In this document: piece after piece, positions 6,808-31,411 of the stretch
Layout: each line of letters starts with the position of its first letter
Numbering within the stretch: position 1 is the stretch's first letter
Origin: Bacteroidota bacterium
Lineage (GTDB): Bacteria; Bacteroidota; Bacteroidia; Bacteroidales; Prolixibacteraceae
Direction of reading: 5' to 3'
DNA length: 35,484 nucleotides
NCBI GenBank assembly: GCA_030684645.1
Contig: JAUXUF010000374.1
Location: 1-35,484 of the forward strand
Made by a program: the position numbers and the translations under genes
Notes under the pieces: model-generated
Database searches by the model: none
Told to the model about the DNA's origin: nothing
What the model saw: the letters and a program-made list of their open reading frames with translations, nothing else

Positions 6808-7214
6808 GCTTTTATGGTTTTATGGTTATTAAAATTGTTCATTATAAAAAATATTAACCCTCCGAAAATAGCGACGTTCTTAAATAAAGGGCCAATGGTT
6901 GACATTTGTCCAACTTGAGTGGTAATTGTGATAGGCAGAAGTACCAATGCTAAAATTAGAGCGGCATATTTTGTTTTAAATCCAATCATTAAAGCAATGC
7001 CTGCAATTAGCATAACAACACCTGAAGCAACAACTGAAAATTCGGGATTGCCAAAAATATGGGCTAACTCTTTAAGTCTGGCCTGGTTGATTTTACTAAT
7101 CACTTTTTCAATATTGAATAAGTGATTTATACTTGCAACGATAAAAATCAGACTTAATAAGATTCTGAATACCGTTACAGAATTTCGATTTATATTAACT
7201 GTTTTTGATTCCAT
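6804..7214 (-). CDS. DoxX family membrane protein
   Basis: The 136-residue protein has four predicted membrane segments: VFRILLSLIFIVASINHLF, FSVVASGVVMLIAGIALMIG, YAALILALVLLPITITT and LFKNVAIFGGLIFFIM. The second is followed by GFKTKYAAL, the typical turn of DoxX proteins. DoxX proteins are small quinone-linked or redox-associated membrane proteins whose function is mostly inferred. The gene is 10 bp downstream of the DoxD/DoxA gene and overlaps the DsrE-like gene by 4 bp, so the three are one transcription unit. Confidence 0.85.
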   Translation of the reverse strand: MESKTVNINRNSVTVFRILLSLIFIVASINHLFNIEKVISKINQARLKELAHIFGNPEFSVVASGVVMLIAGIALMIGFKTKYAALILALVLLPITITTQVGQMSTIGPLFKNVAIFGGLIFFIMNNFNNHKTIKA

Positions 7215-23649: not shown

Positions 23650-24924
23650 TTAGTTGGAAATATAAATCGGATAGCTTAACAATTCTGCTTCCGAAGAAAT
23701 ATATGCCTTAAAGTTGTCGATACTTTTCCATCTTTTGTTTTCAAGTCCCCAAACGGCAAAGAAATAGTGGCGGGAAGCGGCATCTGGCTTGATTTTCTGC
23801 GCTACATAATAGGTCTGTGAAATAACGTTACTGAATTTCTTTTCATCAACCGTTTTGTACCCGAGACTGTAAAAATCGATATCAGTTGTACGGGCAACCT
23901 TTGTCACTTCATCTTTCTTCAGTAAAACAGCCATACCAAGTTCATCAAAATTTAGCGACTGTTTATCGAGTGTTGCAATCGAACGGTAAGCAGCATTTGC
24001 CTCAAAATCAATTGGCTGATTCTTTAGCAAACTGGTAACAATACCAGTAACCAGTTGCTTTTCACCTGAAAATCCGGAGACAGTAACATCTGACTGAAAC
24101 CAGTATTTCCCCGGATAAATGGAAATTCGTTCAACAGCCGACAGGTTCTGCCCTGCAACATGCCATCCCGTATATTTCAAATCGAAGACTGACCGCACAG
24201 GGCCTTCGATCACCTTCTGATATTCATATCCATCAGTTGAGCCTAACCTGTAAAGCGAATCAGCTTCCAGCATGGCCAAACCACCTGAACCCAGTGAACT
24301 TCCACAATGCAGAATATCCATTCCCCAGTCAGAAAGCACATGGTAATCAGGAATTTCAGGAGTATGAATTTTGTCGATAATCAGTCCGGGTTTCAATTTA
24401 CCAAACAAGTCTTTTACGTTGCGGCAGTCGAAATAATTCCGGAATCCCATTTTATCGTTTTCCCAACTGACACTTTCGCCTTGCGCAATGATTTTGAAAC
24501 TATCCTTGTAAGAAAGTGCGGTATAGTGATCAACTTCGGTATAGCTTTTATCCGGTTGCAGAATTCCCAACCGCAAATTGGTACGTTTTTCAAATACAGG
24601 ATATCGATCAACGGCAATGTTTTCAATATTCAATTTAATCGTTTCCGAAGCTTTAAAATTGATGGTAAAAGCCAGTTCATCCCATTTGCCATCGCCATTC
24701 AGATCATCGGCCTGTGAAGGAACATTTTTGCCATCTAATTTCAGGATAGGTACAAATCCATCAGGAACAACTCCCGCTTTTGCTTCCAAATCGGCACGCT
24801 TCAAAACGATCGTTTCGTCAGGCCGGTCAACAGCCAGTGGATTCGTCAACACAAGAGTATTCCTTTTTGTACAGGCAGTAGCTCCAATCAGGAACACAGC
24901 ACTAATTATAAATAGTCTTTTCAT
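23650..24924 (-). CDS. DUF4861 family lipoprotein of a uronate/pectin locus
   Basis: The 424-residue protein has a lipoprotein signal (SAVFLIGATACTKRN, Cys 18). The mature region starts with beta-rich segments (TLVLTNPLAVDRPDETIVLK, DLNGDGKWDELAF) and matches my memory of DUF4861 proteins, which accompany pectin and rhamnogalacturonan degradation genes in Bacteroidota. The 400-residue single-domain length suits the family. Its biochemical activity is not something I can state. It overlaps kduD by 4 bp (ATGA), so it belongs to the kduI-kduD operon and is translationally coupled. Role in oligouronide handling in the periplasm or outer membrane is inferred. Confidence 0.75.
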   Translation of the reverse strand: MKRLFIISAVFLIGATACTKRNTLVLTNPLAVDRPDETIVLKRADLEAKAGVVPDGFVPILKLDGKNVPSQADDLNGDGKWDELAFTINFKASETIKLNIENIAVDRYPVFEKRTNLRLGILQPDKSYTEVDHYTALSYKDSFKIIAQGESVSWENDKMGFRNYFDCRNVKDLFGKLKPGLIIDKIHTPEIPDYHVLSDWGMDILHCGSSLGSGGLAMLEADSLYRLGSTDGYEYQKVIEGPVRSVFDLKYTGWHVAGQNLSAVERISIYPGKYWFQSDVTVSGFSGEKQLVTGIVTSLLKNQPIDFEANAAYRSIATLDKQSLNFDELGMAVLLKKDEVTKVARTTDIDFYSLGYKTVDEKKFSNVISQTYYVAQKIKPDAASRHYFFAVWGLENKRWKSIDNFKAYISSEAELLSYPIYISN

Positions 24925-25727
24925 GATGGCAGATCATTTTCACCTTTCACATAACCAAAATTGGCAAGAATGCCGCCATCGACATAAAGCACATGGCCGT
25001 TTACAAAATCACTGGCTTTTGAGGCCAGAAAAAGTGCAGCATTGCCAACATCTTCAGGCTCTCCCCAGCGACCTGCTGGTGTACGTGTCATGACCAGATC
25101 ATTGAACGGATGACCGTTCAGCCGGATATCTTCAGTTTGAGAAGTTGCGATGTAGCCCGGGCCAATGCCATTGATCTGAAGGTTATATTTTGCCCATTCG
25201 CAGCACATATTTGCGGTTAAAAGTTTTAATCCGCCTTTGGCTGAAGCATAGGCAGAAACCGAGTTACGGCCGTAAACGCTCATCATCGAACACATGTTGA
25301 TGATTTTACCGCTGCGTTTGGCGATCATTGCCGGAGCAACGCGTTTCGAAACAATCAAAGGCGCAATCAAATCAACATCAATTACCTGTTTAAAATCGGC
25401 AATCGGCATATCCAGAATCGGAATGCGTTTAATGATACCGGCATTGTTCACCAAAATATCGATAGTTCCAAGCTCTTTTTCGATGATGGAAATTCCTTTG
25501 TCAACATCAGCTTCATCAGTAACATTAAAAACCAGGGTAAAAACATCAATCCCGTCGGCCTGATATTCCTTCTTGCATTTTTCGAGTCTCTCTTCGCTCA
25601 GGTCGTTTACGCAAATTTTAGCGCCAGCTTTTCCCAGCACTTTTCCAATAGCCATTCCGATACCATGAGTTCCCCCGGTAATCAGGGCAATTTTTCCGGT
25701 TAAATCAAATAATTCATTCATATTCAT
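24921..25727 (-). CDS. kduD: 2-dehydro-3-deoxy-D-gluconate 5-dehydrogenase (KduD-type SDR)
   Basis: The 268-residue short-chain dehydrogenase has the NAD-binding GGTHGIGMAIG motif near residue 18, the NNAG strand and the active-site Y160-x3-K164 in SAYASAKGG with a preceding Ser. The end GHVLYVDGGILANFGY is typical of the family. KduD reduces 2,5-diketo-3-deoxygluconate to 2-keto-3-deoxygluconate, the step after KduI. It lies 15 bp downstream of kduI and overlaps the DUF4861 gene. Gluconate 5-dehydrogenase is a close relative, but the neighbouring kduI makes the KduD assignment firm. Confidence 0.92.
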   Translation of the reverse strand: MNMNELFDLTGKIALITGGTHGIGMAIGKVLGKAGAKICVNDLSEERLEKCKKEYQADGIDVFTLVFNVTDEADVDKGISIIEKELGTIDILVNNAGIIKRIPILDMPIADFKQVIDVDLIAPLIVSKRVAPAMIAKRSGKIINMCSMMSVYGRNSVSAYASAKGGLKLLTANMCCEWAKYNLQINGIGPGYIATSQTEDIRLNGHPFNDLVMTRTPAGRWGEPEDVGNAALFLASKASDFVNGHVLYVDGGILANFGYVKGENDLPS

Positions 25728-25742
25728 TTTATTTAAAATTTT

Positions 25743-26585
25743 CTATTTCAATTGGTTAGGTTGTACAATGTCCATATCGGTATAATCCATGTTTTCGCCA
25801 GCCATACCCCAGATGAAAATATAGTTACTGGTTCCGGCAGCCGAATGTATCGACCAGTTTGGTGAGATTACTGCCTGTTCATTGAGCATCCAGATGTGAC
25901 GGGTTTCCTGCGGTTGACCCATAAAATGACAGACGGCCTGACCTTCAGGAACATTGAAGTAAAAATAAACTTCCATTCGTCGGCTGTGAGTATGGGCAGG
26001 CATGGTATTCCAAACACTTCCGGGGCGCAATTCGGTCATTCCCATCTGAAGCTGACAGGTCTCAACGACTTTACTAATCAGCAATTGATTGATCTGACGT
26101 TCATTGGATGTTAGCGAAGCACCCATTTGCAGCACATTGGCATCTTTCAGGGTAATGTGCCGGGTAGGAAGTTCTTTATGCGCCGGGGTCGAATTCAGGT
26201 AAAAACGGGCCGGTTGAGCCGCACTTTCAGATTTGAAAATGATCTGTTTCACACCTTTACCAATATACAAGGCTTCTTTGAATTCAAGCGGGTATTCAAC
26301 ACCGTCAACCACCACCGAACCTTTGGCTCCGACATTGATAATTCCCAATTCGCGGCGATCGCAAAAGTAAGGCGCTTTCATCGGATCGATTGGGGTAAGT
26401 TCCAGCAGGCCATTTACAGGAACAGCACCTCCGGTAATGTACCGGTCGTAATGCGAATAAACCAAACGAATCTGATCGTTTTCCATTACTTTTTCGATCA
26501 GGAAATGCCCACGCAATTGAGCGGTATCATACTTTTTAACATCATCAGGATGCGATGCAAAACGTTCTTCAAAAATTACTGACAT
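25743..26585 (-). CDS. kduI: 5-keto-4-deoxyuronate isomerase (4-deoxy-L-threo-5-hexosulose-uronate ketol-isomerase)
   Basis: The 280-residue cupin enzyme matches KduI in length and sequence. Zinc ligands are clear: H198 and H200 in [16 protein letters not shown]205 in the same segment, and H247 in [13 protein letters not shown]. These are the E. coli ligands shifted by two. It isomerises 4-deoxy-5-ketouronate, the spontaneous product of unsaturated galacturonate or glucuronate released by lyases and GH88/GH105 hydrolases, to 2,5-diketo-3-deoxygluconate. It is the first gene of the minus-strand operon kduI-kduD-DUF4861. No lyase or unsaturated-uronidase gene is in the window, so the substrate must come from elsewhere in the genome. 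Confidence 0.96.
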
Positions 26586-26676: not shown

Positions 26677-26715
26677 CAAAGATAGTTGGTTTTCTAAAAT
26701 GTGCAATCGATTGCA
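26677..26715 (-). promoter_or_regulatory. kduI promoter with overlapping 14-bp palindromic operator
   Basis: On the minus strand TATCTTTG (26677-26684) is a perfect -7 box. It is 19 bp from ATTG (26704-26707), the -33 element. That element lies inside the perfect palindrome TGCAATCGATTGCA (26702-26715), an ideal LacI-family operator. A bound repressor would block -33 recognition. The predicted leader before the kduI ATG (26585) is about 85 nt. The site is also 67 bp before the divergent lacI-type gene and may influence it. Confidence 0.8.
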
Positions 26716-26782
26716 TATTTATTTTAAATTGGATAACTGAAAACAAAATTATTAGCATATTTGCATAACTTTTAGCCCTGAA

Positions 26783-27820
26783 ATGAATAAAAATACTGAA
26801 CCTACCATACACGACATTGCCAGAGAATTGAATATCTCGGCATCAACCGTATCGCGGGCATTGAACAACAATCCCCGGATCAGCCTGAAAACAAAGGAAA
26901 AGATCAAAGCTGTAGCCGATTCCATGGGTTATCGCCCCAATACGCTTGCATCGAACCTCCGGAATAAAAAATCGAATAGGATTGGAATTGTCGTGCCACT
27001 AATCAACAGGCACTTCTTTTCATCGGTGATCAGCGGTGTTGAGGATGTAGCTTATAAAGCCGGGTACAATGTGGTCATTTCTCAATCAAACGACCTGGCA
27101 AGCAAGGAAATAGAAATTGTGCATTCGATGTTCACAAACAGGGTCGACGGGCTGATCATTTCAATCGCCATGCAGACCGAAAACTTTGACCATTTAAAAC
27201 TCTTCCGGAAGAAACATATTCCGCTGGTATTTTTCGACCGTGCAGTGCCCGAAATTGAAACCGACAAGATTGTGGTCGATGATTTTGACGGAGGATTCAG
27301 GGTTACACAACACTTGATCAATCAGGGTTATAAGCGAATCGGTCATTTAGCCGGTCCGCAAAACCTGAGAACCTATTTTGACCGAAAAAACGGATATATT
27401 GAAGCACTGAAGCAAAATGGCGTTTTCTACGATGAATCGCTTGTTCTTGTAAATACGCTCACCAGTGAAGACGGCACACTTGCTGCACAACAACTTATGA
27501 GCCTACAAAATCCGCCGGATGCGATTTTTTGCGGAAACGATACAACTGCTCTTAGTTTAATGATTTACCTGCGCGATAAGGGATTCCGGATACCGCAGGA
27601 TATTGGAATTGTTGGATTCAGCAACGAACCTTTCTCTAAAGTTGTTTCACCATCGATTTCAACCATTGCACAACCCGGATTTGAAATGGGACAAAAAGCG
27701 GCAGAATTGATTATCAGGAAAATAGAAAATCAGGAAAGAACTTACCAAACCATTGTTTTACCTACCGAACTGATTATTAGGGAATCTTCGGACAGGGGGA
27801 AAAGTGGTCAGTCGCAGTGA
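26783..27820 (+). CDS. LacI/GalR family transcriptional regulator of the uronate genes
   Basis: The 345-residue protein has the N-terminal LacI helix-turn-helix (TIHDIARELNISASTVSRAL, residues 8-27) with a hinge near 45-60. The effector domain of the periplasmic-binding-protein fold follows (RIGIVVPLINRHFFSSVISG onward). The C-terminal region contains FCGNDTTALSLMIYLRDKGF and RIPQDIGIVGFSNEPFSKVV. It is divergent from kduI and precedes kdgK. Two copies of an identical palindrome at those promoters make it the likely repressor of the KDG pathway, with a KDG-like or keto-deoxyuronate compound as probable inducer. Both points are inference. Confidence 0.92.
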   Translation: MNKNTEPTIHDIARELNISASTVSRALNNNPRISLKTKEKIKAVADSMGYRPNTLASNLRNKKSNRIGIVVPLINRHFFSSVISGVEDVAYKAGYNVVISQSNDLASKEIEIVHSMFTNRVDGLIISIAMQTENFDHLKLFRKKHIPLVFFDRAVPEIETDKIVVDDFDGGFRVTQHLINQGYKRIGHLAGPQNLRTYFDRKNGYIEALKQNGVFYDESLVLVNTLTSEDGTLAAQQLMSLQNPPDAIFCGNDTTALSLMIYLRDKGFRIPQDIGIVGFSNEPFSKVVSPSISTIAQPGFEMGQKAAELIIRKIENQERTYQTIVLPTELIIRESSDRGKSGQSQ

Positions 27821-27970
27821 TCAATGGAGCCCGCCTGCCGTCGAGATTAGGTTACGAGTTGCGAGATATGAGTTAAAAAATGCAGCTCGTAACACGAAAC
27901 CCGCAACAATCAACTAAAAAGCTCATATTTTACCTACCGAACAAATAATCAGGGAATCTTCGGACAGGGG
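27756..27970 (+). repeat. Duplicated lacI 3' end flanking an inverted-repeat spacer
   Basis: A 43-bp stretch encoding the C-terminus LPTELIIRESSDRG (27756-27798) recurs at 27928-27970 with 39 of 43 bases identical. There it reads LPTEQIIRESSDRG followed by TAG. The intact gene ends 22 bp past the first copy. The spacer holds an imperfect inverted repeat, GTTACGAGTTGC (27851-27862) against GCAGCTCGTAAC (27882-27893), with a 19-nt loop. It may act as a terminator or be a dispersed intergenic repeat. The pattern looks like a tandem duplication or the residue of a paralogous lacI tail. Confidence 0.8.
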
Positions 27971-28096
27971 ATAGGGAAGTGCCCGATTCAATAAAATTTC
28001 ACTTATACACCGGTGGGAATATTTCAGCCGGAGGATATGTAATATTCTGTGTAACGATTTTACGTTTTATTCTTTTCATACTTCCGGAAGGTTTGT

Positions 28097-28139
28097 TTTG
28101 TTCGGATTGATAAAAATACTAGATTTGCAATCGATTGCA
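28097..28139 (+). promoter_or_regulatory. kdgK promoter with overlapping 14-bp palindromic operator
   Basis: TTTG (28097-28100), a 19-bp spacer and TAGATTTG (28120-28127) make a perfect Bacteroidota promoter. The identical palindrome TGCAATCGATTGCA occurs at 28126-28139, overlapping the last two bases of the -7 box and covering the start region, so bound repressor would block transcription. The kdgK ATG is at 28162, giving a leader of about 28 nt. Confidence 0.85.
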
Positions 28140-28161: not shown

Positions 28162-29193
28162 ATGAAAGTAGTTACTTTTGGTGAGATCATGTTGCGTTTA
28201 GCTACACCCGGTTATTTGCGATTTAATCAGACCGATAGTTTAATTGCCACATTTGGTGGCGGTGAGGCCAATGTTGCCGTATCGCTTGCCAACTTTGGTA
28301 TTTCGGTTGATTTTGTAACCCGTTTGCCTGAAAACGATATTGCCCGGTCTTGCATGATGGACTTGAGAAAATACGGAGTAGGTGTAGATAAGATTGTATA
28401 TGGTGGCCAACGTCTTGGAATTTATTTTCTGGAAACAGGTGCTGTAAGTCGCGGTAGTAAAGTGATTTACGATCGTGCAAATTCAGCTGTATCAGAAATC
28501 AAACCAGGAATGATTGACTGGGATACGGTTTTTGAAGGCGTAAACTGGTTTCACTGGACCGGAATAACACCTGCTATTTCGCAGGGAGCTGCCGATGTTT
28601 GCCTGGAAGCTATCCGGAAAGCTAACGAAAAGAGAATCACCGTTTCGTGCGACCTGAATTACCGCAAAAACCTGTGGAACTACGGCAAAAAAGCCGGCGA
28701 AGTGATGCCTGAACTGGTCGCCGGAACTGATGTGGTTCTTGGAAACGAGGAAGATGCTGAAAAAGTTTTGGGCATTAAACCGGAAGGTGTGGACGTAACT
28801 GGTGGCCATGTTGAAGCTTCAGCCTACGAATCTGTTTCAAAACAGATCATGATCAAATTTCCACGATGTAAAAAGGTGATTACCACCTTACGCGGGTCAA
28901 TCAATGCCAACCACAACAGCTGGTCGGGAGTGCTTTGGGATGGGAAAAATTTATCCGAAGCACCAACTTATCAGATTACTGATATTGTTGACCGTGTTGG
29001 TGGGGGTGACTCATTCATGGGCGGACTGATTTACGGTTTACTGACTTACCCTGGCAATGACCAGAAAGCATTGAACTTTGCCGTTGCTGCATCGTGCCTG
29101 AAACACACCATTTATGGCGATTACAACCAGGTAACTGTTGACGAAGTTGAAAAACTTATGGGTGGCGATGCTTCAGGCCGGGTTGCCAGATAA
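28162..29193 (+). CDS. kdgK: 2-keto-3-deoxygluconate kinase, PfkB family
   Basis: The 343-residue sugar kinase begins MKVVTFGEIMLRLATPGYLR. The ATG at 28162 is chosen because the in-frame TTG further upstream (28135) lies inside the operator. PfkB features are the N-terminal FGGGEANVAVSLANFG and the C-terminal DRVGGGDSFMGGLIYGLL, with catalytic base D283. KdgK phosphorylates 2-keto-3-deoxygluconate at O6, feeding KDPG to the aldolase encoded next. It is the first gene of the operon kdgK-eda-transporter. Other PfkB specificities (fructokinase, ribokinase) are made unlikely by the aldolase downstream and the kdu genes upstream. Confidence 0.9.
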   Translation: MKVVTFGEIMLRLATPGYLRFNQTDSLIATFGGGEANVAVSLANFGISVDFVTRLPENDIARSCMMDLRKYGVGVDKIVYGGQRLGIYFLETGAVSRGSKVIYDRANSAVSEIKPGMIDWDTVFEGVNWFHWTGITPAISQGAADVCLEAIRKANEKRITVSCDLNYRKNLWNYGKKAGEVMPELVAGTDVVLGNEEDAEKVLGIKPEGVDVTGGHVEASAYESVSKQIMIKFPRCKKVITTLRGSINANHNSWSGVLWDGKNLSEAPTYQITDIVDRVGGGDSFMGGLIYGLLTYPGNDQKALNFAVAASCLKHTIYGDYNQVTVDEVEKLMGGDASGRVAR

Positions 29194-29371: not shown

Positions 29372-30043
29372 ATGGCTCGATTTACAAGAATAGAAGTAGC
29401 ATTAAAAATGAAAGAAACCGGTTTGGTACCGGTTTTTTATCACAAGGATACTGAAGTATGCAAACAGGTAGTAAAAGCTTGTTATGAAGGTGGTGTGCGT
29501 GTTTTTGAGTTCACCAACCGTGGCGATTTCGCGCACGAAGTATTTGGCGAAATTTCGAAATGGGCAGTAAAAGAAGCTCCGGAAATGATTTTGGGCGTTG
29601 GCTCTGTGATTGATAGTGCAACTGCTGCGCTTTACATTCAGTTGGGAGCAAATTTCATAGTTTCACCTCTGATTGACGAAGAAACTGCCCGCTTTTGCAA
29701 TCGTCGCAAAATTGCCTGGAGTCCGGGTTGTGGTTCCGTGACTGAAATCAATAAAGCACACGAACTTGGCGCTGAAGTGGTAAAAGTATTTCCCGGATCA
29801 TCGGTGGGAGGCCCTGATTTTGTTTCAGGAGTAAAAGGCCCAATGCCATGGGCCAGCATTATGCCGACCGGCGGCGTTTCTCCGGACGAAACTAACCTGA
29901 AAGGCTGGTTCAAAGCCGGCGTTCATTGCGTTGGAATGGGTTCTCAATTATTCCCCAAAGATGTAATTGAAGCCGGAAATTATCAGGTTATAACTGAAAA
30001 ATGTAGACAAGTACTGGCGATTATCAAAAAGCTAAAAACATAA
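29372..30043 (+). CDS. eda: 2-dehydro-3-deoxy-6-phosphogluconate (KDPG) aldolase
   Basis: The 223-residue class I aldolase matches KDPG/KHG aldolases. E46 (FEFTNRG) is the proton-transfer residue and K138 in VVKVFPGSSVGG is the Schiff-base lysine. The phosphate-binding loop MPTGGVSPDE follows. It splits KDPG into pyruvate and glyceraldehyde 3-phosphate and completes the pathway that starts with KduI. It lies between kdgK and the transporter gene. The first ATG after the repeat spacer gives the family-typical start MARFTRIEVALKMKETG. Confidence 0.94.
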   Translation: MARFTRIEVALKMKETGLVPVFYHKDTEVCKQVVKACYEGGVRVFEFTNRGDFAHEVFGEISKWAVKEAPEMILGVGSVIDSATAALYIQLGANFIVSPLIDEETARFCNRRKIAWSPGCGSVTEINKAHELGAEVVKVFPGSSVGGPDFVSGVKGPMPWASIMPTGGVSPDETNLKGWFKAGVHCVGMGSQLFPKDVIEAGNYQVITEKCRQVLAIIKKLKT

Positions 30044-30076: not shown

Positions 30077-31411
30077 ATGAACCAACTCAAAACAATCGGA
30101 AACTACCGGTGGACCATCTGTGCACTGGTGTTTTTTGCAACAACCATCAATTATCTCGATCGTCAGGTAATCAGTTTGTTAAAACCATATCTGGAAGCTG
30201 CCGGTCTGTTTGGCGACGATCCTAAAACTTATGAATCAGTTTATGCCAATATCGTGATCTGTTTTCAGATCGCATATGCTTTCGGAATGTTGTTGGTAGG
30301 GGGAATCATTGATAAATTTGGTACAAAAATCGGCTATGCAGCATCATTGTTTGGATGGAGTCTGGCAGCTATTGGACATGCGTTTGCAAAAGGTCCGTTC
30401 GGTTTTGGCGTTGCCCGTGCAGCTTTAGGCATTCCCGAAGCCGGGAACTTTCCTGCGGCCATAAAAACTACAGCCGAATGGTTTCCGAAGAAAGAACGGG
30501 CTCTGGCAACCGGTATCTTTAATTCAGGAACCAATGTGGGAGCTATAATTGCCCCAATGGTTGTTCCGTTGATTGCGGTTACTTTGGGTTGGCAATGGGC
30601 ATTCATCCTGACCGGTGCAATCGGCTTAATCTGGCTTGTTTTTTGGAAAATCATGTATGATTCTCCGGAAAAGAAACTTGCGAAAGGTCAGCTCAAACAG
30701 GCCGAATATGATTACATATTAAGTGATAAAGAAGAAACAGTTGCCGCAGACGGATCGGAACTGAAAAAGATTAGCTGGTTTAAATTGCTGACATTCAGAC
30801 AAACCTGGGCATTTTTCCTCGGTAAATTATTGACTGACCCGATTTGGTGGTTCTTCCTTTTTTGGTTACCTGCGTTCCTGAAGGAACAGTACGGTTTAAC
30901 TGGCACACAGGTCAGTTTCCCTATTGCTCTTGTTTATACCATGACCACTGTTGGAAGCATATTTGGTGGCTGGTTACCTAAACGGTTTATGGAAAGAGGA
31001 ATGGATGCCAACAAAGCCCGGAAAACAGCCATGTTTATTTATGCTTTGTTTCCTTTATTAGTTCTTTCTGCTCAAAAAATGGGCAGTTACAACATGTGGT
31101 ATGCAGTGATTATCATCGGTATTGCAGCTTCAGCACACCAGGCCTGGTCGGCAAATATTTTCACTACGGTTTCCGATATGTTTCCGAAACGGGCTATTGC
31201 TTCGGTTACCGGAATTGGTGGCATGGCTGGCGCTGTTGGCGGTATCATGATTGCCAAATCGGCCGGATTACTTTTTGATCATTTCAAAGCTGCGGGCGAT
31301 ATTCGGGTAGGTTACGGGATCATGTTTATGATTTGTGCAACGGCCTACATCATTGCATGGTTTGTGATGCACCTTCTGGTTCCGAAATTTAAGAAGATTG
31401 AATTGGAATAA
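30077..31411 (+). CDS. MFS transporter, hexuronate/aldohexuronate (ExuT-like) family
   Basis: The 444-residue protein has twelve likely membrane segments and the anion:cation symporter (ACS) signature TINYLDRQVISLLKPYL near residue 20. The motif GIPEAGNFPAAIKTTAEWFP and the loop with KKERALATGIFNSGTN are typical of ExuT-like members. It would import uronates, oligouronide products or keto-deoxy sugars across the inner membrane by proton symport. It is 33 bp after eda in the same operon, and a terminator follows. The exact substrate is inferred from the pathway genes. Confidence 0.88.
   Translation: MNQLKTIGNYRWTICALVFFATTINYLDRQVISLLKPYLEAAGLFGDDPKTYESVYANIVICFQIAYAFGMLLVGGIIDKFGTKIGYAASLFGWSLAAIGHAFAKGPFGFGVARAALGIPEAGNFPAAIKTTAEWFPKKERALATGIFNSGTNVGAIIAPMVVPLIAVTLGWQWAFILTGAIGLIWLVFWKIMYDSPEKKLAKGQLKQAEYDYILSDKEETVAADGSELKKISWFKLLTFRQTWAFFLGKLLTDPIWWFFLFWLPAFLKEQYGLTGTQVSFPIALVYTMTTVGSIFGGWLPKRFMERGMDANKARKTAMFIYALFPLLVLSAQKMGSYNMWYAVIIIGIAASAHQAWSANIFTTVSDMFPKRAIASVTGIGGMAGAVGGIMIAKSAGLLFDHFKAAGDIRVGYGIMFMICATAYIIAWFVMHLLVPKFKKIELE

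Follow-up and report, generated by a model that had tools for sequence, protein, structure and literature searches.

The window, i.e., the whole stretch of DNA that was analysed (35,484 nucleotides), made up the whole of contig C105 of a 5.2-Mb genome assembled in 408 contigs. It contained (i) on the minus strand, kduI (5-dehydro-4-deoxy-D-glucuronate isomerase; 25743 to 26585; NCBIfam equivalog, 434 bits versus a cut-off of 250), a kduD-like short-chain dehydrogenase gene (24921 to 25727), and a DUF4861 protein gene (23650 to 24924; Pfam, 276 bits); and (ii) on the plus strand, a LacI-family (KdgR-like) regulator gene encoding 345 aa (26783 to 27820), a kdgK-like PfkB sugar kinase gene (28162 to 29193; Pfam PfkB, 102 bits), eda (KDPG/KHG aldolase; 29372 to 30043; NCBIfam, 372 versus 275 bits), and an MFS transporter gene (30077 to 31411; Pfam MFS_1, 180 bits). 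The designation kduD is a context name only, because the best NCBIfam model above its cut-off was gluconate 5-dehydrogenase; kdgK was named by family and context, with none of the NCBIfam equivalogs at cut-off for this kinase; and the MFS transporter, whose substrate was assigned by context, is probably of hexuronate type.

The window LacI displayed the two-domain structure of the LacI/GalR family, namely PF00356 (LacI; 56 bits, cut-off 27) plus PF13377 (Peripla_BP_3; 115 bits, cut-off 26.5), and the Pfam scan gave LacI and periplasmic-binding models only, leaving the regulator outside the IclR family. It scored under the cut-off in each of the 21 NCBIfam models among the matches listed, and its best solved relative was CcpA (197 bits). 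The last codons of lacI (27756 to 27799) recurred in slightly altered form at 27928 to 27971, in the lacI–kdgK spacer some 170 bp further on; this remnant suggests a duplication or recombination event at the spot.

The 14-bp perfect palindrome TGCAATCGATTGCA was present in two exact copies at 26702 to 26715 and 28126 to 28139, precisely where the sequence-only reading had located them, with lacI lying in between. Among the perfect 14-bp palindromes of the window (7 places in total), it alone occurred twice, and a first-order Markov model of window composition put the expected number of exact copies at 3e-4 for the window and 0.05 for the genome. The first copy (predicted operator 1, strandless like the second) was located between the divergent kduI and lacI, with 116 bp between it and the kduI start (26585) and 67 bp between it and the lacI start (26783), while the second (predicted operator 2) covered the last bases of the kdgK -7 box, 22 bp upstream of the kdgK start.

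Promoter boxes were matched to the Bacteroidota consensus (-33 TTTG plus -7 box). The kdgK promoter TTTG-N19-TAGATTTG (plus strand, 28097 to 28127; TTTG at 28097 to 28100 and TAGATTTG at 28120 to 28127) was a perfect match, and the final two bases of its -7 box were the first two bases of the palindrome. The kduI promoter (minus strand) had a perfect -7 box TATCTTTG (26677 to 26684) and, 19 bp upstream, ATTG (26704 to 26707), which was one base off TTTG and lay inside operator 1. The claims that the palindrome covers the kduI -33 box and overlaps the kdgK -7 box were thus borne out; the further claim of a perfect consensus at these promoters held for kdgK, but only nearly for kduI.

Palindrome-bearing promoters across the genome

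The genome-wide search that the sequence-only reading had proposed gave 7 places at ≤1 mismatch to TGCAATCGATTGCA (1.9 expected by the Markov model with window composition; 0 for the reversed-pattern control), all upstream of gene starts. Besides the kduI|lacI and kdgK sites of the window, these places preceded (i) a second kdgK–eda–MFS operon (with kdgK2) downstream of uxaC on contig C333, (ii) a GH88-family hydrolase gene (280 bits) on contig C232, (iii) a YhcH/YjgK/YiaL protein gene on contig C321, (iv) a second, paralogous lacI (lacI2) on contig C337, with the site 67 bp upstream of its start, and (v) a DUF6807 gene on contig C364. In the case of the GH88 and YhcH genes, the site fell within the ORF of maximal length, and a later ATG was taken as the start; the YhcH family match started exactly at this ATG. 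The genome had four GH88-model matches, two of them above cut-off, and the strongest was the operator-bearing one. The additional sites were thus few and upstream of genes, most of which fit uronate/pectin catabolism, and the motif worked as a tag for remote loci in retrieving the GH88 hydrolase and the second kdgK operon. The notion of a "local" regulon proved too narrow: the site also occurs at five further loci of this genome, and in relatives it is found at SusC-like receptor genes and a rhamnogalacturonase/lyase-like gene (see below).

At ≤2 mismatches, there were 31 places in the genome (reversed pattern, 1). The 24 two-mismatch places were divided into three outside ORFs of at least 70 aa (C176, C88, and C119), three at the first bases of ORFs or in a 97-aa ORF (C187, C319, and C235), and the remaining 18 within longer ORFs; this level was taken as mostly chance because the places lay mainly within ORFs, and two-mismatch sites were rejected as regulon members for the same reason. 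The C88 site (creatininase|Gfo/Idh, conserved in relatives) was the only one kept as a probable target, and the C119 site was kept as the putative own site of a LacI paralog (see below).

The promoter-box search was applied to eight promoters. In addition to kduI and kdgK, the kdgK2 site overlapped the promoter box TAGATTTA, the GH88 site was directly 3′ of the promoter box TATGTTTG, and the yhcH site started 12 bp past the end of the promoter box TATATTTG; lacI, lacI2, and the DUF6807 gene gave no match to the consensus promoter in this search. Repressor-like placement was thus seen at five of the eight promoters, and sites that overlap or closely follow promoter boxes suggest repression.

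The window kdgK–eda–MFS operon is a duplicate of that on contig C333, the encoded proteins being 91.5, 88.8, and 95.3% identical, respectively. The two operons shared a 27-bp piece (-7 box plus operator) and had different leaders. Of the kdgK sequences from 16 genus relatives, 15 were closer to the C333 copy than to the window copy (by 0.3 to 2.1 points) and one was equally close to both; for kdgK sequences of other genera, the window copy was closer in 4/5. The kdgK tree left the order of the two copies unresolved.

Conservation among relatives

The site search was also applied to 61 genomes (own genome included), 43 of which had the site at ≤1 mismatch, with 192 places versus 2 for the reversed pattern. 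A close LacI ortholog, defined as a match of at least 56% identity, was found in 26 of the 61; at least three sites were present in all 26 genomes with this ortholog versus 7/35 without it (Fisher value 4e-11, with shared ancestry ignored). The exceptions included G025 and G033, which had four sites each without a close ortholog, and G005 (100% complete by estimate), which had sites before GH88 and kdgK without one; G005 may represent a lost regulator, an assembly gap, or another reader of the site.

Among the 22 genus relatives, the ortholog was found in 17 and any site in 19. Their 104 sites were all annotated: 83 before recurring targets, 11 in other intergenic regions, and 10 in coding regions; since the target classes were partly drawn from these same 104 sites, the figure of 83 is a measure of recurrence rather than an independent test. 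The recurring targets were the lacI promoter (16 sites, comprising 7 with divergent kduI and 9 with a divergent GH88-like gene), kdgK (16), GH88/105 (16, one of them just 24% identical to the reference), creatininase|Gfo/Idh (13), SusC-like (8), YhcH (5), DUF6807 (4), rhamnogalacturonase/lyase-like (3), and 3-keto-disaccharide hydrolase (2). The lacI-promoter site was present in 16 of the 17 genus relatives with the ortholog, and in the 17th (G007), the gene was cut at the contig start. In six other family genera with the ortholog, 20/28 sites fell in the same target classes; G034 and G036 also had the ortholog, and their 18 sites are outside this count.

A comparison of 38 loci related to the LacI protein covered 13 full-length close relatives (59 to 87% identity) with an upstream region, including those of Draconibacterium orientale, D. 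sediminis, Maribellus sediminis, and Tangfeifania diversioriginum, plus one further close relative cut at the contig end, which was left outside the 13. The palindrome preceded lacI in all 13 (10 exact, including D. orientale and D. sediminis at L152 and L126, and 3 with one mismatch), and six of the 13 named loci were contigs also in the genome set, which makes the two sets not independent; none of the 24 distant relatives had a site within 2 mismatches in the fetched loci. The Mucilaginibacter loci (LacI at 39 to 44% identity, many beside kduI, kdgK, and eda) likewise had no site within 2 mismatches, and the LacI helix there was mostly SVSTVSKAL.

Four further arrangements were observed. First, the genes for a creatininase-like hydrolase and a Gfo/Idh oxidoreductase formed a divergent pair with an operator-like site carrying an off-centre change (the 13 genus sites above; L071, L060, L076, L090, L098, and others, plus L180 with two mismatches in the own genome). 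Second, operator-like sites at L089:3001 and L220:2501 (the latter exact) lay about 100 bp upstream of small proteins with similar starts; the L089 protein is a sigma-70 family factor (Pfam), and a tie of the operator to a sigma-factor cascade is possible. Third, L315 (G033) had two CAATCGATTG cores near 2629 and 2707, just downstream of a LacI gene, with outer bases too altered to count at one mismatch. Fourth, a GH88-like gene was located between lacI and kduI in several genus relatives (e.g., L068:3086-5103), which makes the hydrolase part of the kduI operon there.

Candidate regulators and their putative operators

The own genome harbored six LacI-HTH genes. The window LacI and its C337 paralog were 84% identical, had the recognition helix ISASTVSRALN in common, and paired in the tree with moderate support (86/72); the two probably have the operator in common. 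Another LacI paralog, on contig C119 (helix ISPSTVSRAL), had the similar site CGCAAACGATTGCA upstream of its own start (L181:2667), and a C119-type paralog in G009 had TGCAAACGATTGCA near the gene (L065:3001); the C119-type operator being close but different, cross-talk between the paralogs is possible. On contig C333, the inverted repeats TCCGTGT-N4-ACACGGA at L010:6717-6734 and about 6808-6825 (the second copy with one change) were flanked by uxaE and a gene for a LacI protein with a Peripla_BP_4 domain, and they are likely the operator of a separate galacturonate regulator. The C333 LacI had been considered as the reader of the kdgK2 site and was set aside, its promoter region having, by eye, this other inverted repeat.

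TGCAATCGATTGCA is an even palindrome with a central CG, located near target starts; an even palindrome and a central CG are typical of LacI-family operators (general features in the available part of Ravcheev et al. 2014, PMC4052901), which favours a LacI/GalR operator. The sites stood before genes of KDG formation and use (kduI and the two kdgK–eda operons), as expected for a KdgR-type regulator. The palindrome very probably serves as the operator for a KdgR-like repressor of the LacI family that controls unsaturated-uronate/pectin catabolism. The predicted set of repressor, operator, and targets was supported by the genome scan, with the amendment that two candidate regulators (the 84%-identical paralogs) were found instead of one.

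From the sites, positions, conservation, and target families observed, we infer the binding protein, the direction of control, and the effector. The window LacI and the C337 paralog would bind TGCAATCGATTGCA as dimers, and the bound protein, lying over the kduI -33 box and over the last bases of the -7 box of kdgK, would block transcription. Upon degradation of pectin or some other uronan cleaved by lyases, an unsaturated-uronate intermediate, most likely 2-keto-3-deoxygluconate, would free the repressor; kduI–kduD–DUF4861, both kdgK–eda–MFS operons, the YhcH-family gene, and the DUF6807 gene would then be turned on, together with the GH88-family hydrolase, which would feed kduI. The lacI gene itself would also be regulated by the operator.

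It seems rather unlikely that the C337 paralog is the working regulator, with the window copy being redundant or responsive to another sugar acid. The identical recognition helix and the site upstream of lacI2 are consistent with such a role, but the window copy keeps the arrangement beside kduI seen in relatives, no uronate gene was among the ORFs seen adjoining lacI2, and the tree pairing looks like the outcome of a duplication in this lineage. Still more doubtful is a palindrome read mainly by the C119 or C333 protein, with the window lacI as a bystander: the number of LacI-HTH genes, the similar site before the C119 gene, and the persistence of sites in G005 without a close ortholog would agree with another reader, but G020 and G021 keep C119-type and C333-type LacI and have no site at ≤1 mismatch, the C333 region has its own, different inverted repeat, and the site count tracks the close ortholog of the window LacI. 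A functionless repeat of a 14-mer by chance is scarcely credible given the conservation at the lacI and kdgK promoters (16 genus relatives each) and the near-empty reversed control across the 61 genomes, although the Markov expectation means that single remote sites could be chance, and the DUF6807 site had no promoter box beside it.

Sites outside the family and known systems

Among 296 genomes across the class, 44 (own included) had a kduI match, and the best 29 of the 46 non-own places were fetched. The operator within 2 mismatches was found at -400 to +60 of kduI in 8 of these 29 best loci; a permuted control at the same loci (300 palindromes, central CG kept) gave a mean of 0.03 and a maximum of 1. 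The sites recurring at kduI loci outside the family had the core AATCGATT, and a ninth locus, L284, had CGTAATCGATTACG. All nine loci came from four families outside the own order, and several of them were close kin, so they stand for fewer than nine independent events. L289 and L290 had a LacI gene with the helix TASTVSRAL beside kduI–kduD and the site CGCAATCGATTGCA, and a 42% LacI of G025 with the helix LSASTVSRALNN had TGCAATCGATTGTA before its own start. Two observations spoke against a simple one-helix rule: L266 (helix NSSTVSRAL) also had a AATCGATT site, and the SASTVSRAL proteins of G021 and G033 had no core site in their own fetched loci.

As a tentative suggestion, the AATCGATT-cored palindromes might represent an ancient uronate operator shared across the class Bacteroidia and recognized by AST-helix LacI proteins, and the regulator in this genus might have recruited YhcH, DUF6807, the creatininase-like hydrolase plus Gfo/Idh oxidoreductase, and the 3-keto-disaccharide hydrolase. 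If so, the recruited genes would be undescribed steps in the breakdown of unsaturated or 3-keto uronides from pectin.

The name KdgR covers two protein families. Dickeya/Erwinia KdgR is an IclR-family protein that represses the KDG pathway of pectin utilization, while Bacillus subtilis KdgR is of the LacI family and belongs to the kdgRKAT operon; likened by description, the latter is a LacI-type repressor adjoining kdgK and an aldolase gene, as in the window. Caldicellulosiruptor KdgR, as described in the accessible text of PMC8579813, is an IclR-family protein that likewise represses KDG metabolism in pectin utilization; it has the same pathway role but belongs to a family unrelated to the window LacI. 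LacI-type KdgR, UxaR, UxuR, and UxmR were predicted in Bacteroides thetaiotaomicron (Ravcheev et al. 2013, PMC3878776, from its available portion); the BT0487 KdgR among them, likened here by description, is like the window LacI a LacI-family protein, predicted for glucuronate/galacturonate use, and its regulon is said to include some periplasmic/extracellular proteins. The Bacteroides UxaR/UxuR/KdgR branch, in the excerpt available from Ravcheev et al. 2014 (PMC4052901), likewise represents LacI-type control of the galacturonate, glucuronate, and KDG pathways; that excerpt mentions no Prolixibacteraceae-type genomes and spells out no operator sequences. The 14-mer TGCAATCGATTGCA was not found in the literature text searched (subscription journals, figures, and RegPrecise being outside its scope). 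A LacI-type KdgR is thus a kind already predicted, and what appears new here is a well-defined putative operator together with some target genes of unknown role.

The finding provides a concrete, predicted regulator–operator pair for uronate/pectin use in Bacteroidota close to Draconibacterium and Maribellus, and the operator ties the window genes to other pectin-digestion genes dispersed in the genome. The paralogs, whose helices are nearly identical while their operators differ slightly, form a natural series for the LacI recognition code. Used as a genome-wide tag, the motif gives SusC-like receptors and several unknown genes in relatives a predicted pathway.
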